From Kouleothrix aurantiaca (GTDB lineage: Bacteria; Chloroflexota; Chloroflexia; Chloroflexales; Roseiflexaceae), in the NCBI GenBank assembly GCA_001399705.1, contig LJCR01000027.1, positions 1 to 12,294 on the forward strand: a stretch of 12,294 nucleotides of DNA, read 5' to 3'. The position numbers and the translations under genes are program-made. Position 1 is the first letter of the stretch; the number at the start of each line of letters is the position of its first letter. The notes below the pieces were generated by a model that made no database searches, had not been told where the DNA came from, and saw only the letters and a list, made by a program, of their open reading frames with translations. Positions 1-12,294 of this stretch are shown here, in pieces.

Positions 1-1
1 C

Positions 2-862
2 CAGACGACCGCGGCGCGCCGGCGGCAGCGTGCTGAGCGCCGCGCGATCGCCCAGGCGGAGGCAGCGGCACTCACGGAGGACGAGCCATGGAATCCGGTC
101 GATGCCGGTGTTGTGGTGCGGAGCATTCACCGGCTCTTGCTGCGGCTCCCGGACCTCCACAGCTTCAGCTACACGTCGGGCGAGTGGGCTATCGTTGACG
201 CGCTGCGCGACTACCTCTACGCACCCCCGGATGCGGAAACCCTGGCGCGCGTGTCGAACGCGACTCGACTGGCTGAGGAGGGTCACCGCGCGGAGTTGGA
301 GCGCCTGGCGGCGGAACAAGTCGCGGTCGAGCAGGCGCGCCAGGCAGCGGAGGAGGCCCAGCGCCAATACGATGCGGCCGCGCAGGAACAGCGCGCGGCG
401 CTGCTGGCGGGTATTCTCGCCGGGCAGCAGCCGCTGCCGGACACGGATCTTGCGCGGACTCTCGCGCGGATCGCCTGGCTGCTGGAGCGCCTGCCGGACA
501 CCCAGCACGTCCGCTACAGCGATGACGACCAGGCGCTCATCCGCGAACTCCAGGATGCGCTTGCGTTCGCTGCGCAGCGGGCGCCGGAGAAACCGGTAAC
601 CATGCGGCCGGCCGCGGCGGGGGACCTCCAATCTGCGACCCGGCAGATCATCACGACGCTGCGATGTAGGAACCCCGCGGCAGCGGCGCAGATTCCACGC
701 ATCATCGGACGACTTGGCATGCGCCATTGCATGGCCCTGGCGCAGCAGGCGAAAATCCTAGCGAGTGAGCCGGACTGGTATTTTGCGTTTGCGTTGCTTG
801 TGAAACAGCAGATCCCGCAGCAGGATTGGCCGGCGGTATTTGGGCCGACACCGCTGCGCTAA
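2..862 (+). CDS. Partial protein with repeated 40-residue unit and PHAX-like C-terminal helical domain
   Basis: The frame is open to the left edge, so the 5' end is missing; 286 codons are visible. The GTG at 113 is only an internal candidate start. Two related segments of about 40 residues are visible. The first is near residues 36-75, with RSIHRLLLRLPD followed by FSYTSGEWAIVDALRDYL. The second is near 149-190, with ARIAWLLERLPD followed by VRYSDDDQALIRELQDAL. Between them lies an Ala/Glu/Gln-rich stretch that should form a coiled coil. The last ~70 residues (IITTLRCRNP, IPRIIGRLG, FAFALLVKQQI, AVFGPTP) line up by eye with the N-terminal domain of the PHAX-type protein at 8637-9785 (ITQQLGETAK, IWRIVHECG, VFFQLVRDKL, AIFGTPR). 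They lack the diagnostic RRRTPGG loop. I infer a diverged RNA-binding-like fold. The molecular role is unknown. It ends in TAA and is followed by a 250-base gap. Confidence 0.75.
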   Translation, partial: QTTAARRRQRAERRAIAQAEAAALTEDEPWNPVDAGVVVRSIHRLLLRLPDLHSFSYTSGEWAIVDALRDYLYAPPDAETLARVSNATRLAEEGHRAELERLAAEQVAVEQARQAAEEAQRQYDAAAQEQRAALLAGILAGQQPLPDTDLARTLARIAWLLERLPDTQHVRYSDDDQALIRELQDALAFAAQRAPEKPVTMRPAAAGDLQSATRQIITTLRCRNPAAAAQIPRIIGRLGMRHCMALAQQAKILASEPDWYFAFALLVKQQIPQQDWPAVFGPTPLR

Positions 863-1115
863 GCCAGGATTGTTTGGGGCGGTGGGAGGCGTCGCTTGAG
901 TGTTGGATTGGTGAGGACACAGCACAACGCCCTTGAAACGATCCGTGGGGATGGCCACCGCAACACGAACCGATACAAGGACGCTGTGGTGGGGACTGCC
1001 CAGTCCCTCCTCGCTGTTGCTCAGCCTGGCGAACCAGGCCATGGTCAGTATACCGAGTCATACCAGACCGGTCAAGACGGCCGTCGGGCTCGGGTACCCG
1101 GAACAGAGTTTTATT
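863..1115. other. Intergenic region with tandem hairpins, no convincing gene
   Basis: No frame here looks like a real protein, although two overlapping frames are open through it. It holds a run of strong inverted repeats. GGGACT (992-997) pairs with AGTCCC (1002-1007) across a GCCC loop. GCCTGG (1024-1029) pairs with CCAGGC (1034-1039) across a CGAA loop. A CGGGTACCCG palindrome lies at 1091-1100. CCACC near 956 can also pair with GGTGG near 988 to enclose the first part. This density suggests a structured RNA or the worn end of an IS1341-type element, but I recognise no family. It may also be the 5' leader of the gene at 1116. Confidence 0.4.
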
Positions 1116-1598
1116 ATGTCAAACCAACAACCACGGCAGCCAATCGAACTGCAAGCAGATGCCGTTGTCCAGCTCGACGCAATAGAGCGTTCAGGCGGCG
1201 TCATCAGGGGCATGCTGGCGCGCGTGCTGCCGAATATGTTTGGGACGGGCTATGTGCTGCATCTTCTGGGCGATGGGACACAGGGGGATTCGGAGTATGC
1301 GCTTGATTTCGTCTACCTCGACGCAATGAGCGGCGCGGTGTATGAACTGGACCAGGTCGACGGCGGTATCATCTCCTCGCTGTTGCGTGTAGCTGCGGCG
1401 CTCCGTTATCTCCCGCAGGAAGAGGCGACAGCGCTTTCCCGTGGGCACTTGACGCTGCTGGGCGCCGAGCTGGATGCGCGGATCGCGCTGTGGCAGCGCT
1501 GCCAGGCGGAGCAGCCGACGGAGCGGCCTGCCGCGCACCTACTCTGGCCACTCCAGGCTGGCGCAGCTCCACCGATGACAACGGCTATCACTGCATAG
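1116..1598 (+). CDS. Hypothetical protein, 160 aa
   Basis: Start ATG at 1116 (MSNQQPRQPIELQ) is chosen because the protein-like sequence begins there; the same frame upstream (from 933) reads through hairpin DNA and looks non-coding. No good Shine-Dalgarno is seen, only CAGAG about ten bases upstream. The protein is soluble-looking, with no signal peptide or membrane segment. A central block (TGYVLHLLGDG, EYALDFVYLDAMSGAVYELD) has alternating hydrophobic residues as in a small beta-sheet. It is followed by a helical half (ISSLLRVAAALRYL, LTLLGAELDARIALWQRC) and a low-complexity Ala/Pro/Thr tail. I do not recognise the family. The TAG stop lies inside a small inverted repeat (CTGCAT 1591-1596, ATGCAG 1602-1607). 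Confidence 0.6.
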   Translation: MSNQQPRQPIELQADAVVQLDAIERSGGVIRGMLARVLPNMFGTGYVLHLLGDGTQGDSEYALDFVYLDAMSGAVYELDQVDGGIISSLLRVAAALRYLPQEEATALSRGHLTLLGAELDARIALWQRCQAEQPTERPAAHLLWPLQAGAAPPMTTAITA

Positions 1599-1867
1599 CC
1601 GATGCAGCGACTGCGGTGCCGCGGCGCCTTCGCACATATCTCTTGCACGTGAGGCGTCCTGTACGTTACAAGCGGAGAGCGCGTCCCAATGCGGCAAACA
1701 CGGCCGCCGGCAGCCGAAGTTCGACGATAGCCGTGAGACGGCCAAAATGCGCCTTTGCGGCTTCCCAATGCGCTTATTTGGCAATCGCGGCCGGATGAGT
1801 CGCAAACGGAGGTATCGAGAAGCGTTTTACACTTTCTGGCGATGCATGTTCACGGCGTCAGGGTGCT
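1599..1867. other. Intergenic region, no convincing gene
   Basis: Nothing coding is well supported. A 58-74 residue basic, Cys-containing frame (from 1747 or 1795) crosses into the repeats at 1868 and is probably accidental. The decamer TCCCAATGCG occurs twice (around 1683 and 1764). TGTTCAC at 1847-1853 resembles the opposite half of the GTGAAACA repeats just downstream. Confidence 0.4.
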
Positions 1868-1899
1868 GTGAAACAGCCGTGAAACAGGTTGTGAAACAG
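1868..1899 (+). repeat. Three direct repeats of GTGAAACAG (iteron- or parS-half-site-like)
   Basis: GTGAAACAG is found exactly at 1868-1876, 1879-1887 and 1891-1899, at 11- and 12-base spacing, so the copies face nearly the same side of the helix. GTGAAACA is also the right half of the canonical ParB site (TGTTTCAC/GTGAAACA); that is known, but half-sites in tandem are not the standard form. They lie about 60 bases upstream of a probable -10 box and 160-190 bases upstream of the HTH gene. They could be operators for that protein, plasmid iterons, or ParB contacts. Confidence 0.65.
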
Positions 1900-1940
1900 G
1901 TAAGAAAACGGGTCGCAGGAAGCTCCTCCGGCGGCGGAGA

Positions 1941-1979
1941 ATCGCTAAACGTGCTACAATTTGTCGCCTAAATAGCGAT
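1941..1979 (+). promoter_or_regulatory. Promoter with flanking inverted repeat upstream of HTH gene
   Basis: TGCTACAAT at 1952-1960 is an extended -10 element (TG-N-TACAAT) without a recognisable -35. It sits inside a perfect inverted repeat, ATCGCTA (1941-1947) and TAGCGAT (1973-1979), whose arms bracket the -10 and the likely start site. A regulator bound there would block initiation. Autoregulation by the HTH protein downstream is the simplest inference. The same nine bases TGCTACAAT recur on the minus strand upstream of parA. Confidence 0.55.
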
Positions 1980-2055
1980 CTTGATATGGTGTTGGCTGGC
2001 TGGACGGCTTGGACGACGCGTCTTGCCGCGATCACCGACGCATGGGGAGCAGGCT

Positions 2056-2835
2056 GTGGAGAGTATCGGCGACGTCATCTGTGGTCTCGACGAGCTGCTG
2101 CTGGTCGCGGCCGAGCGCTGGCGCACACCGCTCACGCAGCAGGAACTGGCGCGTATCAGCGGCCTCAGCCGCTCGACCATCAACGAATTGCTGCCGCGGC
2201 GAGTTCAGGCGCATGCGCTGGGGGGTGCTGCGGCGGAAACGGAGCTGGTCCCGTATCAGGGCCGCATTGCGCTGCGCACCGTCGCCGCCCTCTGTAGCGT
2301 GTTCATCTGCCTGCCGGGCGAGCTGCTGCGCTATCGCGCGCCGGGCCAGTCGCTGCCGCGCCTGAGTCCGAACGCGGTCCGGCGGAACGAGATCCCGCCA
2401 CGCCAGATCAACGTCTACCCGCTGACGAATAACATCCCCGAGCGTCTTCAGGTGTACACGCCGGCGGCGCTTGAAAAGGCGACCGGTATCTCGTGGAGCA
2501 GGTGGAATCGCGTTAAGGCCGGAACATCACAGATTGATCTGCCGATGCTCGCGGCGATCTGCGCAGTCCTGAACACCGATGTCTCCGGCGTCCTGGCCCA
2601 CACGGTTCCGTTTCGCGATTCGACCTGGTCGGTCCGGTTCGTGCGGTTCGACGATCTGCGGCTGACGTTCGACCTCACGAACGGCGTGACGGTGAGCGCC
2701 TACTTGGCGCGCTGGAAACCGCTGATGTCGGCGCCGGTCGACGAGCGCGCCCGCTGGCGCCTGACCCCCGATCGGCAGGGTGTGCGCTGGGACGCGCTCG
2801 GAGTAGAAATCTATCCGCGCTTGCTGCTCGATTGA
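2056..2835 (+). CDS. Double helix-turn-helix protein with DUF2442-like C-terminus
   Basis: GTG at 2056 is preferred: GGGGAG lies six bases upstream (2044-2049), and the protein-like sequence starts here. A longer version from TTG 1981 would start close to the predicted transcription start. The product is 259 aa. Residues ~25-48 (LTQQELARISGLSRSTINELL) form a classic XRE-type HTH. Residues ~138-180 (LEKATGISWSRWNRVKAG, IDLPMLAAICAVLNTDVSGVL) form a second XRE-like HTH. Residues ~190-257 (WSVRFVRFDDLRLTFDLTNG then L.RW.PL.......W and WDALGVEIYPRLL) resemble DUF2442. It is probably a DNA-binding regulator of its own promoter, given the inverted repeat there. Its position beside parB and tandem repeats also allows a replication-control role, which the sequence does not prove. 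It is convergent with parB across a shared terminator. Confidence 0.85.
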   Translation: MESIGDVICGLDELLLVAAERWRTPLTQQELARISGLSRSTINELLPRRVQAHALGGAAAETELVPYQGRIALRTVAALCSVFICLPGELLRYRAPGQSLPRLSPNAVRRNEIPPRQINVYPLTNNIPERLQVYTPAALEKATGISWSRWNRVKAGTSQIDLPMLAAICAVLNTDVSGVLAHTVPFRDSTWSVRFVRFDDLRLTFDLTNGVTVSAYLARWKPLMSAPVDERARWRLTPDRQGVRWDALGVEIYPRLLLD

Positions 2836-2877
2836 TGTACGTTATGTCGTGTTGATGGGGTGGCTTGCTGACATACT

Positions 2878-2903
2878 GAGAGCGCCTGGTATCAGGCGCT
2901 CTT
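2878..2903. terminator. Bidirectional intrinsic terminator between convergent genes
   Basis: AGAGCGCCTG (2879-2888) pairs perfectly with CAGGCGCTCT (2893-2902) across a GTAT loop. On the plus strand it is followed by a T-rich run (TTAGTGTTTT), 43 bases after the HTH gene stop. On the minus strand it lies about 80 bases past the parB stop and is entered through AAAACACTA, so it can serve both genes. Confidence 0.8.
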
Positions 2904-2982
2904 AGTGTTTTGGAGGTGGCGTGGGACAGACTGGCTATCGCGTAGCAGATACGTGGTGCCCGTCGCCGTGAAACGTTCGCAA

Positions 2983-4191
2983 CTATCCGTTCGCTACTTC
3001 TTTCTCGGCATTGTCGGTCTGTACCTGCCCGACCCGCTCCAGCAGCCGCCCCACCTGCGTCTGGAGGTTGTGCAAATCGTCGCGCAGCTCGCGGGCTTCC
3101 TGCGGCCCAAGTTTGTCCACCCGATCGAATGCCCGTCGCAGATTGCGCGTAGCGCCGCTGACATTCTGCCGAAGTGGTGCGTACCAACGCGGGACAACGG
3201 TGTTCGAGGGCGGCGTTTGCTGGTCGATCATGCGCGCGACAAGTCGCGCCACCGTCGCCGCGTCGATGCCGCTCCGCCGCGGCGCTTCCCCGACCTGCGT
3301 GGTCTCCTGGTCCGCGGCTGTCGTGTTGGCAAGCGCCCGCTCGGCCGCGATCTCACTCAGCCGTTGCAGGATCTCGCTCACCTGCGGCTGGCTCAGCTTC
3401 CCCTGGTGGAACGCGTCGGTCAGACTCAAAATCTGCCGCTCCTGGAGGCGGAGCAAGGCGATCGTCTGCTGCTGTGCCGGCGTGAAGGCCAGCAGCCGCA
3501 GGAGCTGGTAGGCCCGCGATCGCTTGATGCCCAGGTGCGTCATCGCGTCAGTGATGGGCGTCTGTTCGTCGCCCATCGCCTGCCGGAACTGTTGGAGAGC
3601 CCAGGCGCGCTCCATATCGCTGAAGTCCTCGCGGTCTTCATTCTCGGCATACTGGAGGCTCACCCGGTCGAGTGGCGACGGTGGATCGATGACCACCGCG
3701 TCGATTGACAGCATTCCGACGAGGTGCGCGGCGGTCCAACGCCGCTGCCCGATCAGAATCAGGTAGCGCGCGGCGGGGTATTGCTGGCTGCTGCCAGGGT
3801 AAACGACGATCGGTTGGAGCTGTCGCCTCGTGAGGGAAGCGCCAAGGTCGCGCAGCTCGGCGACCAACTCCTGGTAGGCTGGCGGCACTGCGCCCCGCAC
3901 AACCAGCTCCTCTGGGAGCGGCACCATGCGCGGTTGGCGCATCTCGGGCCGCAGGTCGGGCGCGATGTGGCCAGTCGGGATGTGCTCGATCGCCCGGTTC
4001 GCCACTAGGTGCTCGACCCGCCCGGTGAAGTGGCTGCGGGCCTGTGCAGCCCGGTCGATCTCGCTTTCCTGCTGTGCGGCCGTTGCCGAAGCAGCAGCCG
4101 GCTGCCCATCTTTGGGGGGAGTAGATGGGAGGCCCCCCACGCGCGCTTTGATCGCGGCAATCTGATCGAGCTGTCGTTTTGTTGTGCTCAT
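2983..4191 (-). CDS. parB: ParB-family partition protein
   Basis: ATG at 4191 (MSTTKRQLDQIAAIKARVGG) gives 402 aa. The frame upstream of it is element sequence. After a polar ~70-residue N-terminus comes the ParB core. It has a GERR-like motif ILIGQRRWTAAHL near residue 145, then the box QYAENEDREDFSDMERA near 180. The central HTH (PITDAMTHLGIKRSRAYQLL) lies near 212-231. A Gln/Arg-rich helical C-terminus probably makes the dimer coiled coil. ParB binds centromere sites and is positioned by the ParA ATPase. It once followed parA directly, but an IscB element now separates them. Its translation start has only GAG next to the ATG, so the insertion may have changed its ribosome binding site. It ends before the shared terminator at 2878-2903. 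Confidence 0.92.
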   Translation of the reverse strand: MSTTKRQLDQIAAIKARVGGLPSTPPKDGQPAAASATAAQQESEIDRAAQARSHFTGRVEHLVANRAIEHIPTGHIAPDLRPEMRQPRMVPLPEELVVRGAVPPAYQELVAELRDLGASLTRRQLQPIVVYPGSSQQYPAARYLILIGQRRWTAAHLVGMLSIDAVVIDPPSPLDRVSLQYAENEDREDFSDMERAWALQQFRQAMGDEQTPITDAMTHLGIKRSRAYQLLRLLAFTPAQQQTIALLRLQERQILSLTDAFHQGKLSQPQVSEILQRLSEIAAERALANTTAADQETTQVGEAPRRSGIDAATVARLVARMIDQQTPPSNTVVPRWYAPLRQNVSGATRNLRRAFDRVDKLGPQEARELRDDLHNLQTQVGRLLERVGQVQTDNAEKEVANG

Positions 4192-5799
4192 CTCAATTAG
4201 TAGCGCAGAAACCCCGCCGATCACGGCTGGGGAGGCAGCGCCACCCCTCCTTTCCAGGCATATTCGTAGCCATCCGCCCGCTGGAGCAGTCGGCAATGCC
4301 GCCAACTGATCCCATCAACGGTGCCAACACGAAATGATCCGCTCGCTCGCACAGCGACTCGTCCGATATGAACCCCTGCATGCTTCCCGGCTGGTAGTTC
4401 GGCCCGCACCAGATCGCCGGTTGCGAAGCCGTGAACGTGCTTCTGGCGCAGCAGGTAGCCGCGCGGGAACCCATACCGGGTGTATCGGGTGCGACAATAT
4501 GCCCCGCGTCCCATCGCCCGCACGCCCAGGACAGGCACATCATCCCCGCGCACGCCCACCAGCTGGCCCACACACAGCGCGTCGATGGCATGCGTCTTGG
4601 GCAAGCCAAACCGCACCCTGTTCCAGTGGGTGCGCCCGCCGCTCCAGCAGCCGACGGTAATACCCAGCGCCTGCAATCGGTTTCTCAGCGCCCAGCGCAG
4701 CGTGTTGACCGCCGCCACATCCGCGAGCGGTACTCGCGCACGGGCCTGCACCTCCGGGTATCCATACTCGCTCGCCGTCCGGTCGCCCTTGTCCTGATTG
4801 CACCTTCGGCACGCGACCGTAAGATTAGAGGCCCGATCAGAGCCGCCCCTGCTGCGGGGGATGATGTGATCGCGCTCCAGGGGCAGATTGGTTGCACCGC
4901 AGTACACGCACGCCCGGCCCCATTTTTCGAGCAGATAGTGCCACAGCTCGTAGTCGTAGAGATCGCCGCGCTGGTACGCCGCGCCGGAGATTTCTGGGTT
5001 CTGGAGCAACTGCGTATCGAAGCGCACATGCTCCAGCTCAATGCTGTGTATCGGCGCCCAGCGACCATAGCGCCGCGCCCAGGTCAGCAGATTGTCGAGG
5101 CGGCTGCGCATGGACGGCGTGAGCCAGCCCGCTGATCTGCGGCGATTGTCGAATCGAGGAGCCCGGTAGCGGAGATTGGCTGTGCGCCGCCGCTGGCGGG
5201 CCTGCGCACGCTTCCGCATCCGCTCGGCAATAAGCGCGCCTTTGTGCGTGATCTCGGCTAAATGCAGCGCGTGGTGAACCGAACCGTCGGGTGTATCCGC
5301 AGCACGCGCCAGGGCCACGCCCGTCGTTTTCGACCCCGGATCGAGTTTGAGGACAACTGGCTGGAGTGCGCTGTCCGCGACGGAGCGATCCTTGAGCCTG
5401 ATAGTGAACGGCGCCCTGCGATGCACCACCGCTCGCGCCTGCCGAAGCAGCAGGCGCGCCCGTTTCTCTGTGCAGGGCATCAGCGGCCGCTTGTGTTTGT
5501 CGAGTACAAAGACCACATCTGTTCCTTCCTTACGGAACCCCTTACGGGGCTGGTGACGCGCCGAGGTGGACGTACCTCGGCGGCTCTCCTCGACCGTGTT
5601 GATCAGCGGCATCCCGCTCCGGTTCGTTTCGTCCTTTCCCTGAAGGGTGTCTGCAACCGGAGCTTCGAGAGGTTGGAACTGAAGCAGCATTCCAACGTCG
5701 GTCTTGAACCTCTGGTCAACGCTCCGCCGTCAGCGCCGTGTCCTGCGGCTCAGGCGGATGGTCTGGTCATAGACAGGCTTGTGGATTGTCCCACAAGCC
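4192..5799 (-). mobile_element. IscB (IS200/IS605-superfamily, HEARO-type) element inserted between parA and parB
   Basis: The left end is placed at the first base of the omega-RNA scaffold (about 5799), 22 bases after the parA stop. The right end lies in the ~29 bases between the iscB stop (4221) and the parB ATG (4191), which contain CGGCGGGGTTTCTGCGC. Exact right boundary unknown. There is no tnpA, so it depends on a transposase elsewhere. It lies on the same strand as parA and parB and can be read by their transcript. Removing it would leave parA and parB about 30 bases apart, a normal operon spacing. Confidence 0.85.
4221..5516 (-). CDS. iscB: IscB RNA-guided nuclease (RuvC + HNH)
   Basis: IscB is the ancestor-type relative of Cas9. 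It uses an omega RNA to cut double-stranded DNA next to a target-adjacent motif. GTG at 5516 gives 431 aa and starts MVFVLDKHKRPLMP, as IscB proteins do; GGAAGGA sits just upstream. In-frame ATGs further 5' fall inside the omega RNA. Domains in order: PLMP domain 1-45; RuvC-I LKLDPGSKTTGVAL with D59; Arg-rich bridge helix ~99-127; RuvC-II SIELEHVRFD with E160; HNH ~203-245 (CVYC, RDHIIPRSRGG with D216/H217, CRRCN zinc pair); RuvC-III KTHAIDALCVG with H309 and D312; then a TAM-interacting-type C-terminus. All catalytic residues look intact, so it should be active. It lies inside the parA-parB gap. Confidence 0.96.
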   Translation of the reverse strand: MVFVLDKHKRPLMPCTEKRARLLLRQARAVVHRRAPFTIRLKDRSVADSALQPVVLKLDPGSKTTGVALARAADTPDGSVHHALHLAEITHKGALIAERMRKRAQARQRRRTANLRYRAPRFDNRRRSAGWLTPSMRSRLDNLLTWARRYGRWAPIHSIELEHVRFDTQLLQNPEISGAAYQRGDLYDYELWHYLLEKWGRACVYCGATNLPLERDHIIPRSRGGSDRASNLTVACRRCNQDKGDRTASEYGYPEVQARARVPLADVAAVNTLRWALRNRLQALGITVGCWSGGRTHWNRVRFGLPKTHAIDALCVGQLVGVRGDDVPVLGVRAMGRGAYCRTRYTRYGFPRGYLLRQKHVHGFATGDLVRAELPAGKHAGVHIGRVAVRASGSFRVGTVDGISWRHCRLLQRADGYEYAWKGGVALPPQP

Positions 5800-5815
5800 C
5801 TCGGCTGAATGCCGG
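5517..5815 (-). ncRNA. IscB omega RNA (HEARO RNA), with 16-nt guide at 5' end
   Basis: The region directly 5' of iscB folds like the HEARO family. Reading along the minus strand: a first hairpin GGCTTGTGG-GACAAT-CCACAAGCC (5799-5776); GTTGGAA paired with TTCCAAC; a long 9-bp stem GCTCCGGTT/AACCGGAGC enclosing a CCC-TTCA-GGG hairpin; a conserved-looking GCGGGATGCCGCTGATC block; CCGAGGT-ACGTCC-ACCTCGG; and two tandem GTAA-tetraloop hairpins (CCCC-GTAA-GGGG, TTCC-GTAA-GGAA) ending at the iscB ribosome binding site. By family knowledge the guide is the ~16 nt just 5' of the first hairpin, here CCGGCATTCAGCCGAG (5815-5800), which is parA-flanking DNA. Exact RNA ends are inferred. It is probably made from the parA promoter or processed from that transcript. 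Confidence 0.9.
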
Positions 5816-5820
5816 TAGGA

Positions 5821-6612
5821 CTATGACGACGGCACCCCATCCAGCACCAGTAACTCCTCGGTGACCTTGAGAAACGCCTCGCGCACCGCTGTGTCGTCCG
5901 GCCCGCGGTAGGAGAACACACTCTGCTGCGCGCCACTCGCCAGGCGGATGATCGCCCGCGGAGGAATAATAGTCTGGAGTAGCGCCGGGGAGTAGCCCTC
6001 GCCGAGCGCCTGGTCATAGACCCGGTCGAGCGCGGCGCGGGGCGTGTAGTTGTTGCGCAGCACGCTGAGGCCGCGGAGTTGTGGGTTGAACTCCTGGGCC
6101 TGGACGATGGACTCGGCAAGATCGCGCAGTGACTGTAGCACCAGGTCAGCGGCCTGCACCGGGGCGACACAGCGAGTCGCTGCGGCGAGTGCCGTTGCCA
6201 GCACGGGGCCACGCGCCGGCGCCAGATCCAGGAGTACAATGTCGTAGACGCGGCCTGTCTCGGCGAGCCCCTGAAGCGCCTTCTTCAGCACGTAGATCCC
6301 GCCGCCCATGCTGCGGTTCAATACGTCGGGCAGCGCGACCAATTCTTTATGGCCCGGGACGACATCTATCCCCTCGGCGGTCGGTCGGATACAGTCGGCA
6401 AGCTGCCGGTGCTGCACGGCGACACCTAAAAAGCTGTCCTCAACAGTTAGCGCCTCTGTGTCGACGCCGAGCCAGCGCGAGGCATGGCGCTGCGCATCCA
6501 GGTCGATCAGCAGGACGCGGAGATCCAGCCGCGCGAACGCCGCCGCGAGATTGACCGAGATCGATGTCTTTCCAACACCACCCTTCTCCAGCGCCATCGC
6601 ATAAACATGCAT
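5821..6612 (-). CDS. parA: ParA-family partition ATPase
   Basis: The 263-aa protein starts MHVYAMALEKGGVGKTS. The deviant Walker A (KGGVGKT) is at residues 10-16, Walker A' (VLLIDLDAQ) near 33-41, and Walker B (DIVLLDLAP) near 124-132, the full ParA/Soj ATPase set. It lacks an N-terminal HTH, so it is of the small type that does not itself bind operator DNA through such a domain. ATP-bound dimers coat the nucleoid and move ParB-bound DNA. ATG 6612 has AGAAAGG 11 bases upstream; an internal ATG at 6597 is possible. A ~190-base leader separates it from the likely promoter. Its stop is 22 bases from the IscB element, which splits the original parA-parB operon. Confidence 0.95.
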   Translation of the reverse strand: MHVYAMALEKGGVGKTSISVNLAAAFARLDLRVLLIDLDAQRHASRWLGVDTEALTVEDSFLGVAVQHRQLADCIRPTAEGIDVVPGHKELVALPDVLNRSMGGGIYVLKKALQGLAETGRVYDIVLLDLAPARGPVLATALAAATRCVAPVQAADLVLQSLRDLAESIVQAQEFNPQLRGLSVLRNNYTPRAALDRVYDQALGEGYSPALLQTIIPPRAIIRLASGAQQSVFSYRGPDDTAVREAFLKVTEELLVLDGVPSS

Positions 6613-6613
6613 C

Positions 6614-6698
6614 GTTCACCGTACCTTTCTTGGCGCGATAGTGTGCGCCGTTCAACGTACCCTGACTCGTGGTTCACCGCGTTCTGGCGCCGTGAACC
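6614..6698. promoter_or_regulatory. Operator-like GTTCAMCG repeats in parA leader
   Basis: GTTCACCGTACC (6614-6625) and GTTCAACGTACC (6650-6661) are near-identical 12-mers spaced 36 bases apart. GTTCACCG occurs again at 6672-6679. A perfect inverted repeat, GGTTCAC (6671-6677) with GTGAACC (6692-6698), overlaps the third copy. They cluster within 90 bases of the parA start, where partition operons usually have operators or centromere sites. I infer binding by ParB, ParA or a separate regulator. Confidence 0.5.
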
Positions 6699-6774
6699 CA
6701 TAATTCCAACACATTGGACTCTGCTGCGCAGCGGCATGGCGCGCTCGCGTGCAAAGACCGATACGTTTGGAGGC
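6671..6774. repeat. Imperfect ~104-bp direct repeat, copy A (parA-proximal)
   Basis: This copy matches copy B at 6886-6989 in the same orientation, with the start of each copy about 215 bases apart. The best-conserved core, ATTCCAACACATTGGACTC, is identical in both and contains an inverted repeat TCCAA-CACA-TTGGA (6705-6718). A second conserved block is ATACGTTTG(G)AGGC (6761-6774). The stretch between is looser. Conservation of two blocks around a variable part looks like protein-binding sites kept by selection or by recent duplication. Confidence 0.7.
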
Positions 6775-6803
6775 AGTGTGATACACATAAGTTGCTGATG
6801 GAG

Positions 6804-6812
6804 ATTGTAGCA
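6804..6812 (-). promoter_or_regulatory. Probable parA promoter, extended -10
   Basis: On the minus strand TGCTACAAT is an extended -10 with no clear -35. The identical nonamer is found at 1952-1960 before the HTH gene. It lies between the two repeat copies, and transcription would pass through copy A and the GTTCAMCG sites before reaching parA about 190 bases on. Confidence 0.45.
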
Positions 6813-6885
6813 TATCATGAGCACTTTGTGTGAGCTTAGAAGCCAGGAAAATTAAGGAGAAAAGTGATGAGGATGGTAGAAATGC

Positions 6886-6989
6886 GATTCAACGTGTTCT
6901 GACGCCGTCAACGCGTCATTCCAACACATTGGACTCAGTTGTGCGTCGTGGCGTGATGCGCTTGCACACAGAGCCAATACGTTTGAGGC
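6886..6989. repeat. Imperfect ~104-bp direct repeat, copy B
   Basis: This is the second copy of the repeat at 6671-6774, with the same TCCAA-CACA-TTGGA inverted repeat (6920-6933) and ATACGTTTGAGGC block (6977-6989). The long inverted repeat GGTTCAC/GTGAACC of copy A is degraded here (GATTCAA/GTCAACG). The two copies bracket the putative parA promoter. No gene is supported in 6830-7036, though a plus-strand AAGGAG followed by ATG at 6867 opens an 11-codon frame. Confidence 0.65.
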
Positions 6990-7041
6990 GCTGTCGGATG
7001 GCCACAATTGACGGAGGCCAGAAGAAATGCTGCTGCAACAA

Positions 7042-7071
7042 CAGAACGGCACAGGCGCCTGTGCCGTTCTG
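7042..7071 (-). terminator. 30-bp perfect palindrome, probable terminator of the TPR gene
   Basis: CAGAACGGCACAGGC is followed directly by its exact complement, GCCTGTGCCGTTCTG, with no spacer. On the minus strand it starts 28 bases after the stop of the gene at 7099 and is followed by TTGTTG, so it can terminate that transcript. AACAACAGA (minus strand, 7090-7082) can pair with TCTGTTGTT (7045-7037), which includes the palindrome's last bases and tail. A competing or extended fold is therefore possible. A dyad protein-binding site is the alternative. Confidence 0.6.
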
Positions 7072-7098
7072 CGCGGGCCGCTCTGTTGTTATCGACGT

Positions 7099-7776
7099 TC
7101 AGGCGCAGCGCGCAAGAAGCGTCTGAGCCGGCCGCGCGAGATGCGGCTCATCCCAGAGGAACGGATCGGGTGGGAGCGCCGCCGGGCGCTCCAGCCAGCC
7201 AAAACCGTCATCGATCGCCTGGCGAAACCGATGCGAGGGCGTGAGCCGCAGGAGATCGGCACTCTGGCGCGCCAGGATGTAGAGATAGCGCGCCGACGCG
7301 AGGTCATCGGCTGCCACCGCGGACCACGCACGCAGCAGGGTTGTGTGGAGCTGGACAAGGCGGCGGTTCAGTCTCCGATCGGCACGGTCGAGCGCCTCGT
7401 CGGCCTGGTCCAGCAGGGTGCGCGCATCATCGATGCGGCCCCGCCGCAACTGGATGGCGGCCCACGTGTGCAGCGGGATGATTAAGATCTGCGGACAATC
7501 GGCCTGCTTGGCAATGGGTAGGAGCCGGCGCACGCACTCGGCGTACGCGTCCGCGGCGCCTGAGAGGTCTTCGAGGTGGCGCAGCATATCGCCGCGGTGG
7601 GCCCATAACATGGCGAGGACCCCGGACGGAGCGGCGGCGGCCTCAGCCGCGGCGTAGATACGCTCGCAGACCTTCAGCGCCTCATTGAAACGGCACTCCC
7701 CGACCAGCGCATGCTCTTGCGCCACAGCATCACGCCAGCTCTGGCCAGACGGAGGCCACATAGGTGTCGCGGTCAA
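7099..7776 (-). CDS. TPR-like helical repeat protein
   Basis: The frame is open as far up as about 8150, but a good promoter at 7812-7841 puts the transcript start near 7805. The start must then be TTG 7776 (AAAGAG six bases upstream) or ATG 7761. From TTG the product is 225 aa. It is all helical, with paired helices typical of tetratricopeptide repeats: near 18-48 (EHALVGECRFNEALKVCERI), 52-90 (AMLWAHRGDMLRHLEDLSGA), 100-130 (AAIQLRRGRIDDARTLLDQA) and 140-175 (TTLLRAWSAVAADDLASARY). No enzymatic domain or membrane segment is seen. Such proteins usually scaffold protein contacts; the partner is unknown. It is followed by the palindromic terminator and lies upstream of the parA promoter on the same strand. 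Confidence 0.8.
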   Translation of the reverse strand: MTATPMWPPSGQSWRDAVAQEHALVGECRFNEALKVCERIYAAAEAAAAPSGVLAMLWAHRGDMLRHLEDLSGAADAYAECVRRLLPIAKQADCPQILIIPLHTWAAIQLRRGRIDDARTLLDQADEALDRADRRLNRRLVQLHTTLLRAWSAVAADDLASARYLYILARQSADLLRLTPSHRFRQAIDDGFGWLERPAALPPDPFLWDEPHLARPAQTLLARCA

Positions 7777-7811
7777 GGCGGTCTCTTTCTTCTGTGTGGT
7801 CGAATATATAC

Positions 7812-7841
7812 ATAGTATGCCGTGATAGGCGCGCTCGTCAA
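7812..7841 (-). promoter_or_regulatory. Sigma-70-type promoter of the TPR gene
   Basis: On the minus strand TTGACG (7841-7836), an 18-base spacer and TACTAT (7817-7812) match the sigma-A/sigma-70 consensus well. The region just after is AT-rich (TATATATT). It fixes the start of the downstream gene and argues that the long upstream open frame is not translated. Confidence 0.7.
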
Positions 7842-7960
7842 GCAGAAAACACTGCGCAATCGCCGCAACATCTGGGCCGTTGGAACGGCGTAACGCGGCG
7901 AATACGCATGATTTTGCTCGACATAAGCGTAGGAGCGCCTGGCACACCAGCGACGGCTGG

Positions 7961-7983
7961 AGAGCGCGCCGAAAGCGCGCTCT
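7961..7983. terminator. Strong hairpin, possible relic terminator
   Basis: AGAGCGCGC (7961-7969) pairs perfectly with GCGCGCTCT (7975-7983) across a CGAAA loop. There is no long T run on either strand. On the minus strand it lies just beyond the end of the CCA-transferase-like fragment, so it may be that gene's old terminator. Confidence 0.4.
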
Positions 7984-7995
7984 TGTTCGTGACGA

Positions 7996-8112
7996 TCCTA
8001 CGCGACGCGCGCGCGCCCAGGCGAGCGCCTCTTCCGGCGTGGTGATCTCACCGTCGAGCTGCGCCTGGTAGAGCTGGCGGTGCAGCGCGCCGAGGTTGGG
8101 GCCGGGCGTCGC
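7996..8112 (-). pseudogene. C-terminal fragment resembling a tRNA nucleotidyltransferase/poly(A) polymerase-family protein
   Basis: About 39 codons read ATPGPNLGALHRQLYQAQLD then GEITTPEEALAWARARR. This PGP..G..L..L..AQLDGEI.T.EEAL pattern is the usual C-terminal tail of class II CCA-adding/poly(A) polymerase-family enzymes. The N-terminal catalytic parts are absent: the frame meets TGA upstream, and the DNA becomes TnpB-like on the other strand at about 8104. So this is a broken end left at a recombination or insertion junction. The family assignment rests on a short motif remembered, not searched. Confidence 0.45.
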
Positions 8113-8449
8113 AATGGAACCACGGCCAGGTCCGCCAGTACATCACCTACAAGGCGCAGCGGAAGGTATCGTGGTAGAACTGGTCGACGAGCACTACACG
8201 ACCCAAACCTGTCCCAATTGTGGATGCAGGCACAAACCACGCGGCAGGACGTATTCCTGCGGGCGGTGTGGTTTCAGCGCGCATCGCGACATAGTAGGAC
8301 AGATCAACATCCTGTCACGGTATAAAACAGGACAGGTGGGCGCTTTACACGCCCCAAATGAGATCAAGCATCGTATCCCGCATAACGAGCGGCTCATGCG
8401 TAGACGCCGGGACACCGGCCAGCAGGGGAAAGCAAAAGCCGAGAGCTGA
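8104..8449 (+). pseudogene. Truncated, frameshifted TnpB (C-terminal third)
   Basis: Typical TnpB C-terminal sequence is split over two frames. QWNHGQVRQYITYKAQ runs in one frame to about 8158. AEGIVVELVDEHYTTQTCPN then continues in the next, one base being missing near 8158. The zinc ribbon (CPNC...CGRCG) and the final RuvC aspartate (HRDIVGQIN) are present, but the N-terminal ~250-300 residues, including the first RuvC aspartate, are lost. It cannot be an active nuclease. It abuts a CCA-transferase-like fragment on the opposite strand and is followed by a palindrome and an omega-RNA-like end. Confidence 0.85.
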
Positions 8450-8501
8450 AAGCTGAAAACGACTCGTTTCAGCTTTCAGCTCTCGGCTTTCAGCTTTCCC
8501 C
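8425..8501. repeat. Long near-perfect palindrome (34/35-base arms)
   Basis: The left arm 8425-8458 and right arm 8467-8501 are complementary apart from one small mismatch/bulge (A against CA near the base), with an 8-base loop ACGACTCG. The arms contain tandem GCTGAAA units. It overlaps the last codons of the TnpB relic. It could be a MITE-like insertion, a repetitive hairpin family, or a strong terminator; its length exceeds a normal terminator. Confidence 0.8.
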
Positions 8502-8509
8502 CGCTGTAG

Positions 8510-8571
8510 CTCGCGGGACTGGTCGCCAGTCGTGAGAAACCGCGGGGACTTAACGCCCCGCGGAGTGTCAC
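8510..8571 (+). ncRNA. Decayed TnpB omega-RNA 3' end / element right end
   Basis: Two hairpins follow the palindrome: GACTGG-TCG-CCAGTC (8517-8531) and CCGCGGGG/CCCCGCGG (8540-8547, 8556-8563) with an 8-base loop, then GGAGTGTCAC. A GC-rich hairpin followed by a GTGTCA-type end is, from memory, typical of the right ends of IS605/IS1341 elements, where the omega-RNA scaffold stops and the guide begins. The matching tnpB is broken, so any RNA made would only act with another TnpB. Confidence 0.5.
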
Positions 8572-8636
8572 GCTTCACAGGACAAGATGGTACTCCAGGC
8601 TGAGATGATGCGTTGATGGGAGCACTCCCCCACGGC

Positions 8637-9785
8637 TTACGGGGCGGCAGCTGAACTCTGGCGCTGCGCGCGCTCGACCGCGCGGGTTGTGGCCGTCGTA
8701 ATATTTACCGCCACCATGCCGAGCGCGGCATCGTAGTATGGCGTTCCACTTCCGATAAAAGTATCTGCCGGGTCATCGGCGAGCGCGGCGGCGACCTTCC
8801 TCCACGCCTTTGCGGTGATGTAGAGGCCGATCGGCCTCACGGACACCGGGTCGGGCCGCTCCAGGCCCTTCGGCAGCGCTGGCAGCGGGCCGGCGTAGAT
8901 CATGCGTACTAGCGTAATATCGGGGCGGATGAGCGGCGTCCCAACCTGGCCGACGACGGTGATGGCCGGCGGTTTGAGATCGCCCTCCGCGAGCCGGTCA
9001 TCCGGGTTGCGCACCTTGACCGGCCCCATGGCGAACACGCTCATCCCCTCTAGCTCCGGGTCGTAGAGACCGACGCCGCTGAAGGTGAGCAGGCTGCCGG
9101 GCGGCCGCTCTTGCGCCGGCCGCCAGTGTTTGGCGTTGATCGTGACGATGTATGCGAGATCGATGGGCTCGGGCGGCACAGGGACCGCGCGCGGCATCGG
9201 CGGCAGCGCGCCGTGGTGCGTGAGCACCAGCATGGTCTGCCGCTCTTTCTCGATCACGTTGCCCGGCTTGCCGGTAAGTTCGAGCTTGAGCGCGGTCGCA
9301 CCTCCGCTCCTAGCCTCCAGCGCGCGCCAGTGCGCGGCGCGCCCCTCCCAGGGGATCGGCGCTGGCGGAAGCGGAGGTGGGGGCGGAGGTGCGGCGTCCC
9401 CGGACCCAGGACGGGCGCGCTCGCGCCAGCGGGGCGTCCCGAAAATCGCGCGGTAGCGCTCCATCGCCCGGGCGTCTCCCAGCGCGCCGCTTCCGCCCAA
9501 CTTGTCGCGCACGAGTTGGAAGAACACGCCGCCGGGCGTGCGCCGCCTCTCTCCATCCTCGGTCATCATGCCGCCGTGCGACTCGATCTCCTGTGCCTCG
9601 CGCAGCCACTCCAGCGCTTGCTCGGCGCCGCACTCGTGGACAATACGCCAGATCATGCCGCGCGCCTGCTTCGCGGTCTCGCCGAGCTGCTGGGTGATAT
9701 ACCGCACCGGGTGGCGATGCGGGTCGATTATCTCGGACCTGTCGCTCACGCGCTCCCTCCCTATAGCTGTGCTGTTCGCGTCCAT
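8637..9785 (-). CDS. PHAX RNA-binding domain protein with duplicated C-terminal module
   Basis: ATG 9785 (MDANSTAIG) with GGTGGGTAA just upstream gives 382 aa; ATG 9803 in frame is possible. Residues ~20-96 carry the PHAX/RNA_GG_bind signature: ITQQLGETAKQARGMIWRIV, AQEIESHGGMM, then ERRRTPGGVFFQLVRDKL. The RRRTPGGV loop is diagnostic. In eukaryotes this domain binds snRNA/snoRNA for export; in bacteria its ligand is not known to me. A Pro-rich linker (~131-145) follows. The C-terminal half repeats one module: ~211-254 (AYIVTINAKHWRP, YDPELEGMSVFAMGP) and ~321-364 (LYITAKAWRKV, YDAALGMVAVNIT). It is a cytosolic, probably RNA-binding protein of unknown task. A TATAAAAT box at 9813-9806 may be its promoter. 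An intact tnpB ends 25 bases upstream of ATG 9785. Confidence 0.85.
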   Translation of the reverse strand: MDANSTAIGRERVSDRSEIIDPHRHPVRYITQQLGETAKQARGMIWRIVHECGAEQALEWLREAQEIESHGGMMTEDGERRRTPGGVFFQLVRDKLGGSGALGDARAMERYRAIFGTPRWRERARPGSGDAAPPPPPPLPPAPIPWEGRAAHWRALEARSGGATALKLELTGKPGNVIEKERQTMLVLTHHGALPPMPRAVPVPPEPIDLAYIVTINAKHWRPAQERPPGSLLTFSGVGLYDPELEGMSVFAMGPVKVRNPDDRLAEGDLKPPAITVVGQVGTPLIRPDITLVRMIYAGPLPALPKGLERPDPVSVRPIGLYITAKAWRKVAAALADDPADTFIGSGTPYYDAALGMVAVNITTATTRAVERAQRQSSAAAP

Positions 9786-9809
9786 GATAGTTACCCACCG
9801 CATAGCATT

Positions 9810-11186
9810 TTATAACGCTTGCGATGGATGTTTCCTCCGGCAGGAGCCGGAGTGCTGACCTACGCCGGATTGACCGCTTATGCTTTCGCACCCGAAGGCG
9901 GGTTCTCGGCGGGCGGATGCACTACGGGCATCCGATGATTGCAGATAGGCGACATGCCGGGCGTCGAGCAAGTCTTTGACGGCCTCCTTGCTGCGGCACG
10001 CCCTCATCTCGCGGTCATAGAAGCGGGATTGGTGATTGATCGCCGCATTCTCGTCGGCGTGGATGGTCAAACCGCATGCCTGGCACCAGAACGTCTGTTG
10101 CTCAGGCCGGTTGGCACGGGATACAAAGTGGCAGCGCGAGCATTCTTGAGACGAGTAGGCAGCCCAACCTACCTGGGCGGTCTGCCCGCGCTTCTTCGCG
10201 CCCCAGGCGATCTGCCGAGGCAGGTGGGCCAGGTTGCTGGCGTACAGGTAGGCGTTCATGCGCCTAGCGCGAAAGCGCATTGTGCGCACGTCCAGGTCTT
10301 CATAGGCAACCTGATGGCCCGCATGATCGGCGTAGAACTGGTTGACCGCCCGGTTGATCTCCTGCCGGACGTGGCGGGCCAGCCGCTGATTGGTCAGCGA
10401 CGGCAGCTCACTCACGCCCTTCTTTTTCAGGCAGGCGCCCAGCTTGGCCTTCCGGCGGCGTTTCTCGCGGTCCAGCTTATGCCGGCGAGCGAGCTTTCCA
10501 TGGAACGTGCCGTAGTGCTTGCCGGTCGAGGTGGTCAGCAAGTTTACGATGCCGACGTCCACCCCGACGACGGGCGATTCGTCCGTGGTGGTCGCGGCGA
10601 TTTGCTCGTGTACGCTCACAGTGAGCCACCAGCCCGATGGCTTGCGCGTGAGCGTCATGCTGGTGTTGATGCGCTTGCCGTCGAGCATCCGCCGGTGATA
10701 GGCCGCGAGCTTGAGCGGCAGCCGGATGGGTTGGCCCATCTCCAGCGTGCTGATGCGCAGCCAGTAGTCGAAGGTGCTGTCTTCGGACGGCTCCAGCGCG
10801 ACGACATTGGCGTTGGCTTGAATAACCGTTTGCTTGAGTGTGGGGATTTGCCATTCTTTCCAGGTTGGGCCAGCACGCTGGGGATCAGCCTGCGCCTGAT
10901 ACTCGGTCAACTCATCCAGGTATGCCTGATACGCGCGATCGCGATTAGTGCGCCAGGACTGCGCGACGCCCGCCGCGTGCTGGATCACCGCTCGCTGCCA
11001 GCGGGCCAAGAGCGGGCTCGGCAGCCAGGCATCGGCGTACTTGTCCGGCTCCACGTCCGTGCAGAATGCAGTAACATACTGCTGGCACAGCCGCATGTAC
11101 GCATCGGCGAGCGCGTCAAGCTGTGTGAGCTTGCTCGCGTTGGCGTCGGAAAGCCGTATATGCGTGACGGCACGGGTCAGTTTCAT
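9810..11186 (-). CDS. tnpB: TnpB RNA-guided nuclease (IS200/IS605 OrfB family)
   Basis: TnpB uses an omega RNA from the element's right end to cut DNA next to a target-adjacent motif, favouring retention of the element. ATG 11186 (MKLTRAVTHIRLS) gives 458 aa; GTG 11195 is possible. Neither has a clear ribosome site. The N-terminal helical region is long (~1-200). RuvC-I VVGVDVGIVNLLTT has D210, RuvC-II VAYEDLDVRTMRF has E296, the zinc ribbon CSRC...CQAC is at 349-371, and HADENAAINH has D378. All are intact, so it should be active rather than a TldR-type dead repressor. The ~75 residues after RuvC-III are low-complexity and overlap the omega RNA. There is no tnpA. Its promoter has an SOS-box-like palindrome. 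Confidence 0.95.
   Translation of the reverse strand: MKLTRAVTHIRLSDANASKLTQLDALADAYMRLCQQYVTAFCTDVEPDKYADAWLPSPLLARWQRAVIQHAAGVAQSWRTNRDRAYQAYLDELTEYQAQADPQRAGPTWKEWQIPTLKQTVIQANANVVALEPSEDSTFDYWLRISTLEMGQPIRLPLKLAAYHRRMLDGKRINTSMTLTRKPSGWWLTVSVHEQIAATTTDESPVVGVDVGIVNLLTTSTGKHYGTFHGKLARRHKLDREKRRRKAKLGACLKKKGVSELPSLTNQRLARHVRQEINRAVNQFYADHAGHQVAYEDLDVRTMRFRARRMNAYLYASNLAHLPRQIAWGAKKRGQTAQVGWAAYSSQECSRCHFVSRANRPEQQTFWCQACGLTIHADENAAINHQSRFYDREMRACRSKEAVKDLLDARHVAYLQSSDARSASARREPAFGCESISGQSGVGQHSGSCRRKHPSQAL
9815..9960 (-). ncRNA. TnpB omega RNA / right end (approximate)
   Basis: By family rule the omega RNA covers the 3' end of tnpB and runs into flanking DNA. On the minus strand the region contains GGATGC/GCATCC (9933-9915) and a final perfect hairpin, CTCCGGC-TCCT-GCCGGAG (9852-9835), followed by GAAACATC. 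The scaffold should end just after this hairpin. The guide would then come from the bases around 9830-9800, which include the TATAAAAT box and start of the PHAX gene. Both RNA ends are estimates. Confidence 0.6.
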
Positions 11187-11203
11187 TGATAGCACACATA
11201 GCG

Positions 11204-11217
11204 CGAACAGGTGTTCG
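11204..11217. promoter_or_regulatory. LexA (SOS) box-like palindrome downstream of tnpB promoter
   Basis: CGAACAGGTGTTCG is a 14-base dyad (6-bp arms, 2-base centre). It fits the Gram-positive/Bacillus-type LexA box CGAAC-N4-GTTCG, with the purine/pyrimidine inner bases in place. It lies 1 base beyond the -10 box, over the predicted start of transcription, an ideal place to repress. It implies DNA-damage induction of tnpB if the host LexA reads this motif. Confidence 0.6.
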
Positions 11218-11218
11218 T

Positions 11219-11247
11219 AGTATACCAGAACACGGTCTTTTCCGCAA
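11219..11247 (-). promoter_or_regulatory. tnpB promoter (-35/-10)
   Basis: On the minus strand TTGCGG (11247-11242), a 17-base spacer and TATACT (11224-11219) make a good sigma-70-type promoter, about 30-40 bases upstream of the tnpB start. The remaining DNA to 11319 is the element's left end, with two close AACG(T)TTT-type repeats and a TATCG/CGATA inverted repeat (11274-11278, 11289-11293). Its exact boundary is not visible. Confidence 0.65.
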
Positions 11248-11319
11248 TAGAATGCGACAAAACGCTAAAACGTTATCGAACGAGTGAACGATAGCAATAC
11301 GCCTTTGAGACGGTTTCGG

Positions 11320-12294
11320 CTATGCGGCCGGCCGCGCGATCTCATCAGGCAGGTAGCGAACTTCCAGCTCTGTCCGCCCCGGAGCGGGCTCAAGCCGCTG
11401 CCCACCCGCCGTTGTCAGCGGCAGCGCGAATGCGACCACCACATAGGGCCCATCGAACGTGGCTACACGGCCCGGCGTCTGTGCCGCCACCATGTGCTCG
11501 CGATGCGCGTCAGGCGTCAGCGTCGTCACGACGGCGTCGCCAGGCGCGGCCGGGCTCCAGCTCGCCGCCGGCGGCAGCGCGTCCTCCAGGCCGAGCAGGA
11601 GCGCCTGCCGGTCGTCGCCGCGGGCCTGGGCGCGGGCCAAATTGAGCGCGTCGCGGTAGCTGCCGAACTGCGCGAGCCGCCGGAGTATTACGGTCTCACC
11701 GCTGCGGGTGATCGAGGGCTCGGCAAGCCGCCGCAGCGTGACGATCGCCTGGTGGCACTCGACGTCGGTCAGCTCGGGCGCGACAGTGCGGAGCGCCGCG
11801 GCAATCGCGAGCGGGCGGACGTCGGTGGGCATTTTTGCCGCCCGCCGCAGCGCGTTCCAACCCTCGCCCTGCCCCCGCCGGTCGTGAGGCGGCTGTCGAG
11901 CCAGCCCCGCGCGAACTGGGCGGCCCGCGGCTGGAGCGGAATCCTGCTCCACTTCAGCGTGTTGTCCGGCGGCTTGCTTTGCAGCGCCGGCAGCAGCTCG
12001 CTTTCGGTCCCCTCAATGTGGAACGGTATCGAGCCGATGTCGCTGTGGAGGTAGACCACCCACTTGCCGCGCTCGCCGTGCTCGTGGTACGTGTATCCCC
12101 AGCCGTCAGGATCAAGATCGGCGATCGCGTCGGCGAGTAGCACCGGCTTGATGCGGTAGAAGCCTCTGGTCTGCTCGGTTCCGTCGCCGCTCTCCTTGGC
12201 GGCCTGGTTGCAGAGCAGCGTGAGGAGCGCTTTACCGCTCGGGCTGGCGCGGAGCCGGTCCAGGTCCGCGGCGCGCAGCGGACCGGGCGTGACG
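11320..12294 (-). pseudogene. Unknown gene, partial and split by an apparent one-base frameshift
   Basis: The frame from the right edge is open for about 139 codons (GFYRIKPVLLADAIADLDPD, WVVYLHSDIGSIPFHIEGTE, AAQFARGWLDSRLTTGG) and then turns to Arg/Ser-rich nonsense, ending at 11769. A second frame takes over with normal-looking sequence (GEGWNALRRAAKMPTDVRPL, VILRRLAQFGSYRDALNLAR, YVVVAFALPLTTAGGQRLEP) to the TAG at 11320. Adding one G to the G5 run at 11872-11876 joins them into one reading frame of over 320 residues (SRLTTGGGQGEGWNALRRAA). It is therefore either a sequencing/assembly slip, a true mutation, or less likely programmed frameshifting. If instead it is two genes, the second could start at ATG 11832 or GTG 11952. 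No family is recognised. Confidence 0.65.

Follow-up and report, generated by a model that had tools for sequence, protein, structure and literature searches.

How does an RNA-guided nuclease come to lie between the two genes of a partition operon, and does it do anything there for the replicon that carries it? The question is raised by a stretch of DNA of 12,294 nucleotides from Kouleothrix aurantiaca (assembly GCA_001399705.1, contig LJCR01000027.1, positions 1 to 12,294), which we call the window. It is one whole contig (C1890), and this single contig is the basis for the locus; no terminal overlap of its ends was found. The source genome comprises 7.8 Mb in 3,843 contigs and is 83.5% complete with 7.5% contamination. 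A preliminary description had placed an IscB element precisely between parA and parB, and that placement is supported by the element's ends and by the flanks when these are rejoined.

On the minus strand the order is parA (6612-5821), HEARO RNA (5827-5579), iscB (5516-4221), and parB (4191-2983), so that, as first described and now confirmed by profile and RNA matches, IscB and its RNA fill the space between the partition genes on a single strand. In a profile search the protein matches NCBIfam NF040563 (guided_IscB) at 398.6 bits against a cut-off of 175 and PF14239 (RRXRR) at 213.1 bits; PF01844, PF14279, and PF13395 each score above cut-off, and solved IscB chains (TbaIscB and HfmIscB) can be aligned to it across the RuvC and HNH regions. 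Its reading frame is full length. Profile match and translation give 431 codons from a GTG at 4221..5516, a putative start because the frame stays open up to an ATG at 5690. Directly 5′ of iscB and on the same strand lies a full-length match to the HEARO/omega RNA model RF02033 (5579..5827, model positions 1-211, 79.4 bits, E 4.4e-15; gathering score 83), with its first stem paired. By the tests made on the sequence this is an IscB element, with an RNA score slightly below threshold.

The left end of the element coincides with position 1 of the HEARO model, and its right end, the 29 bases 3′ of the iscB stop (4192..4220), was set by comparison with relatives, whose right ends align with it by eye (e.g., GGCGGGTTTCCGCGCC.../ATGA, where the slash, here and below, marks the junction). 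Together with the rejoined flanks, these ends define a complete IscB/omega-RNA element of 1,636 bp at 4192..5827 on the minus strand. An extent of 4192 to 5820 had been given before; the boundary at 4192 holds, but the other moves to 5827, seven bases into parA. Unlike an autonomous IS200/IS605 element, the interval is filled by RNA and iscB only and has no Y1 TnpA. No Y1 transposase (PF01797) was found in the source genome, at its 83.5% completeness, and none (E ≤ 0.001) in 6 of the 17 order genomes that bear HEARO matches (G000, G001, G059, G066, G067, and G069). PMC9755519 likewise reports a TnpA association for only a few HEARO nucleases.

Of the flanking genes, parA (5821..6612, minus strand) is identified by profile matches as coding for a Walker-type ATPase, and parB (2983..4191, minus strand, ATG at 4191) by PF02195 at 27.2 bits (cut-off 26.3), its 54.7 bits to TIGR00180 falling below the cut-off of 58.45. 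ParB relatives were sought in 60 relatives and the 82 order genomes returned, at E ≤ 1e-40; matches occur in 12 of the 82, the window's own genome among them. Besides the window's own there were 19 such places, and dropping one with no parA in its stretch (L057) leaves 18 loci that are partly non-independent (L014 and L059 are alike at the junction, and some genomes hold several of the loci). The possibility, raised earlier, that parA and parB are not a pair is not borne out: across the 18 loci their identities to the window's proteins rank together (Spearman 0.74). No ParA or ParB relatives were found in viral_contigs, and among plasmids 47 records matched ParB, none of them covering 80% of it.

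What did the junction look like before the element arrived? The tip of its left end, GTCATAG (5821..5827, minus strand), forms the 5′ side of the first stem of the omega RNA, where its partner is CTATGAC at 5766-5772. Read in the parA frame it gives ..G TCA TAG, a new parA stop (5821-5823), and because parA and the HEARO match have seven bases in common, this TAG is part of the element. When the flanks are rejoined they read GTG CCG TC/A TGA GC, an in-frame end of parA that overlaps parB. Without the element, to judge from this reconstruction, the two genes would probably overlap by 4 bases (GTGCCGTC/ATGAGC), which displaces the initial estimate that they would be ~30 bases apart. Homologous pairs, whose junctions we compared as had been suggested, agree: all 18 related pairs at E ≤ 1e-40 in the order genomes are free of any insert between parA and parB, and nine have an ATGA overlap, eight a 1-base overlap, and one a gap (L054). 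One locus, L063, is readable either way and is counted with the 1-base group; the scripted count otherwise gives 10 and 7. The remark that neither gene is broken holds in that both can be read, but the overlap between them is itself interrupted.

A further line comes from the ParA C-terminus. A search of 5.8 billion proteins, with 8,000 candidates scored and 120 listed, includes among the matches listed a 90% identical relative (P0002) of 262 aa that ends in LDGVPS, whereas the window's ParA has 263 aa and ends in LDGVPSS. The end of P0002 is the one predicted for an empty allele and, as a sequence comparison, is independent support for an empty site. Ends are variable among the 22 ParA relatives read (GVPS, GVPA, GVPT, GVPE, GGV, and others), with GVPSS in none of them; one, P0005 (GVSAS), is there as long as the window's.

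Some other features of the window may be recorded here. Upstream of parA lies a 57-base direct repeat (82%) at 6673-6729 and 6888-6944, a candidate centromere or control site, followed by a perfect 15+15-base inverted repeat at 7042-7071. A consensus scan of 2900-7000 returned no promoter-like and no terminator-like sites, where shuffled sequence would give 0.8 and 2.2, respectively; this says little. Farther along are a TnpB-family protein of 461 aa (9810-11195, minus strand; NF040570 99.8 bits, cut-off 100) and an ORF at 8096-8449 (plus strand) that includes the C-terminal portion (NF040570 positions 333-389) of a second TnpB. A near-palindrome of ~85 bases (8421-8505), with Rfam microRNA matches far below gathering scores, overlaps the end of this ORF, and the protein at 8637-9803 (minus strand) matches PF10258, the PHAX RNA-binding domain named for an RNA export factor, at 70.6 bits.

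The reconstructed site suggests what the nuclease might be aimed at. The guide of an IscB is found on the 5′ side of its omega RNA, and by this position the predicted guide here consists of the 20 parA bases next to the element (5828..5847, minus strand). The ATGA at 4188..4191 (minus strand) is the start codon of parB, from the flanks the predicted TAM and, in the empty site, the stop of parA as well. We hold with good confidence that this stop/start overlap was entered by an IscB/omega-RNA transposon whose TAM is of the NTGA type and whose guide would direct it to insert-free copies. TAMs of NTGA or NTG are known for IsrB (PMC9581776), and the assayed IscB TAMs named in PMC13180657 are NTAAA and NWRGNA; the NTGA assignment therefore rests on the flanks together with IsrB.

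In this scheme, transcription from parA through the omega RNA would produce an RNA with the last ~16-20 bases of parA as its 5′ end, and IscB charged with it would cut the parA end followed by ATGA in sister replicons or homologous loci that have no insert. The insert itself would be safe since GTCA, not ATGA, comes after the guide. Cutting of empty copies would guard the element against loss and favour plasmid copies that bear it, and this (retention and plasmid drive by cutting empty sister loci) is, on our analysis, the likely job of the element. Bench work in a preprint shows that TnpB acts as a gene drive for insertion sequences in plasmids (PMC11870625). Of the functions first proposed, competition between replicons would follow, by inference, from the predicted guide and this published drive.

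Within the source genome, in a search allowing up to three mismatches, guide plus ATGA has a single occurrence, the locus itself, at two mismatches. In viral_contigs no empty site that fits the guide perfectly was seen: the exact 20-mer is in no contig and a degenerate guide pattern in 14, below a rough chance estimate. The 17 related par loci that bear an overlap differ at 3-10 of 16 guide bases and at 2-6 of the 8 nearest the TAM; for this reason only closer relatives would be cut.

Plain retention may also be all that the element achieves, an explanation to which we would give a little under an even chance. A TAM identical to common start and overlap sequences, together with the purging of insertions inside genes, would then have left the element in par as a passive by-product, and neither partition nor competition between plasmids would be affected. 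This reading is favoured by the 18 insert-free par pairs and by the many unrelated genes that the family precedes (below), and on these two grounds nothing points to a particular tie with par. Against it stand the drive in plasmids published for a sister nuclease, TnpB (PMC11870625), and the intact iscB frame and paired omega-RNA stem, a state of the sequence that suggests function being maintained.

The wider family bears on both readings. Among the 82 order genomes, HEARO matches occur in 17 and an IscB match (E ≤ 1e-40) in 13, the window's genome included. We read 38 IscB/HEARO relatives, and in 24 the right end could be set by hand; the other 14 (L119, L092, L094, L107, L100, L102, L124, L140, L141, and L145-L149) stop at a contig end or have a right end that could not be set. 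The bases that follow the right end are ATGA in 17, GTGA in 4, ATGG in 2, and ATGC in 1, a count that is partly circular because the ends were set while marked ATGA/GTGA sites were in view. A right-tail motif from which the TAM is excluded, but which was drawn from the same elements, is followed by NTG in 9 of 9 cases (8 ATG and 1 GTG) and by NTGA in 7; L149, absent from the right-end table, matches it too. The NTG after the element opens at least 90 codons in 19 of the 24, against 547 of 2,064 background [AG]TGA sites in longer loci (binomial 1.1e-7, under a null that ignores purging inside genes, which would raise the expected share); fewer than 90 are opened in L123, L128, L130, L143, and L108.

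Sixteen of these 19 downstream frames were scanned, with family matches in nine and none in seven. The matches are to ribulokinase (L125), a relative of acyl-CoA dehydrogenase with no model above cut-off (L127), an FdhF/YdeP relative (L131, 562.6 bits, cut-off 582.15), hemE (L133), PNPase domains (L134), a photosynthetic reaction centre protein (L142), a PF06983 protein (L122), a DUF5666 protein (L139), and a Fer4 protein (L132). In L132 and L133 the upstream frames, PF02662 (FlpD) and PF00490 (ALAD, hemB), respectively, enter the element, and rejoining the flanks places TGA within an ATGA, just as at parA-parB. In five congener loci no hemB overlapping hemE was found (three have hemE without an overlapping hemB, and two were missed by the start pattern), so that the hemB/hemE overlap rests on the rejoined flanks and the two Pfam matches. 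Two elements run against a start-codon rule: L094 looks inserted inside an ABC ATPase gene, and L123, by eye, lies six codons before the end of an ABC ATPase-like gene.

IscB matches occur in 88 plasmid records, of which 12 were read; 13 copies were extracted, and one (L154) stops before the end of iscB, leaving 12 readable. An annotated gene begins at an ATGA directly 3′ of the element in five (L155, L156, both copies in L158, and L160), and in the other seven (L152, L153, L157, L159, L161, L162, and L163) no annotated gene starts at the right flank, in a gene table that is incomplete. In phages, 59 records matched IscB, six of them covering 80%; the IscB relative P0122 had no match in viral_contigs. 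The par site looks like one case of a wider start-codon habit rather than a dedicated partition module.

Two further sets of elements deserve mention. HEARO elements without iscB (382-433 bp; L108, L114, L132-L136, L138, L139, and L142-L144) have similar ends, and some of them precede hemE, pnp, or the photosynthetic reaction centre gene. A second HEARO/IscB group in the source genome (L006-L009 and L145-L147; 33-36% to the window's IscB where measured) has other ends, some starting GATAGTTCC, with the right side often GCT/ATGG.

How are neighbouring genes translated across such an insert? Pairing with the anti-Shine-Dalgarno sequence is stronger at the 24 left flanks (mean −5.1 kcal/mol) than in 2,534 background sites (−2.4; p 3e-4), and the 24 right ends (mean −4.4) also pair better than background (p 1e-4); −5 is reached by 13 left flanks, 9 right ends, and 18% of background. 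By these sequence measures, the pairing fits insertion between a ribosome site and its start codon, with a substitute in some right ends. At the other end, in the frame of an ATGA overlap, two left-end codons precede the stop in the window, and six precede it in 21 of 38 relatives; as the six-codon stop comes from a hairpin loop, selection for a left-end stop is not established. We had considered GTCATAG as an adaptation to parA; the idea is weakened by this hairpin-loop stop and by an Ammonifex plasmid (L162) in which a candidate left end likewise starts with GTCATAG.

A tentative and rather doubtful extension is that the whole group consists of start-codon dockers with translation-safe ends, harmless in vital operons, and that iscB has here replaced parA as the coupling partner of ParB. 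With a TAM of start codon plus A, insertions would fall either between a ribosome site and its start codon or on an ATGA overlap; the left stem-loop would close the upstream frame, and the right end would give a ribosome site or an overlap of the iscB stop with a start. Vital operons tolerating such elements would include hemB-hemE, pnp, and parA-parB. If true, the coupling would tie retention of the nuclease to inheritance of the plasmid.

Such coupling may exist, since the TGA of iscB overlaps a GTG in frame with parB (GTGA, 4221..4224, minus strand); used as a start, this GTG would add 11 codons (VIGGVSALLIE). In the preferred reading of an element that cuts empty copies, this would be secondary: parB translation, once overlapping parA at ATGA, would now be coupled to iscB. 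We think it unlikely that the coupling is instead the main point, with the parB start depending on ribosomes that finish iscB, so that iscB defects would lower ParB and be selected against and IscB would therefore be hard to lose. For this speak, besides the GTGA overlap, the pairing energies in the window, where the parB ATG (+1.9 kcal/mol) has no Shine-Dalgarno and the GTG (−1.5) has little of one by comparison with iscB (−8.3) and parA (−6.1), and four plasmid copies (L156, L157, the first of L158, and L160) in which, with ends as placed, the iscB stop is the element's TG completed by the A of the target ATG. However, an in-frame extension has a 1-in-3 chance, the iscB stop lies 28 bases from ATGA, and thus out of frame, in L120 and L125 (29 in the window), and in most plasmid copies read it stands apart from the next start. 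An overlap of the iscB stop with GTGA in L129 and L130 was dropped, as an earlier TAA precedes the stop used.

The preliminary description had also offered a nuclease dedicated to partition, or an addiction module, with dosage coupled to segregation. Same strand and operon position would suit it, but we regard it as very improbable: there is no second case among the 18 related par pairs, IscB relatives adjoin unrelated genes, and ParA or ParB is annotated in none of the 12 plasmid stretches read (one of them, L154, carrying no annotation). Nothing was found in support of dosage coupling, and an addiction-like effect is conceivable only via the possible dependence of parB on iscB translation. 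The earlier alternative that iscB would be met with unrelated flanks is true of the IscB relatives. Since iscB occurs elsewhere with unrelated flanks and all 18 par pairs are insert-free, the insert, on sequence comparison, has the look of a mobile element that came to rest at this site. A chimeric join of an IscB element to par flanks, which a fragmented assembly without read data might produce, is barely credible, given that the two ends are those of the element family and that rejoining the flanks yields an ATGA overlap and a ParA end as in P0002.

The locus shows an IscB nuclease apparently harmless in an operon on which a plasmid depends, and the predicted guide and empty site make it directly testable. 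The rule it points to, insertion at start codons and at stop/start overlaps, would, if true, account for the presence of such elements in vital operons and for the way in which the nuclease might drive them through plasmid populations. Within the listed papers that we covered, no treatment of IscB at start codons or within par operons was recognised. ATGA or GTGA flanks of HEARO may be reported in Weinberg 2009 and Altae-Tran 2021.

It remains to set the locus beside known systems. With OMEGA IscB/HEARO (NF040563, RF02033) the window shares an RRXRR and HNH protein, a 5′ omega RNA on the iscB strand, an element without transposase, and an NTGA-like right flank as in the relatives read here; it differs in sitting at a former stop/start overlap in a plasmid-type partition operon and in a left tip that supplies the upstream gene's stop after two codons. 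The IsrB of PMC9581776 has as its TAM a start codon plus A, as at the window's parB, but the window's protein has an HNH domain and its TAM is inferred from flanks. The TnpB insertion sequences in plasmids (PMC11870625) follow a logic like the one predicted here, in that the guide records the site and the nuclease removes insert-free copies; there, however, TnpB works with TnpA and was bench-tested, whereas the window holds an IscB read from sequence. It is, in short, an IscB element, by the tests made, in a new and instructive place.
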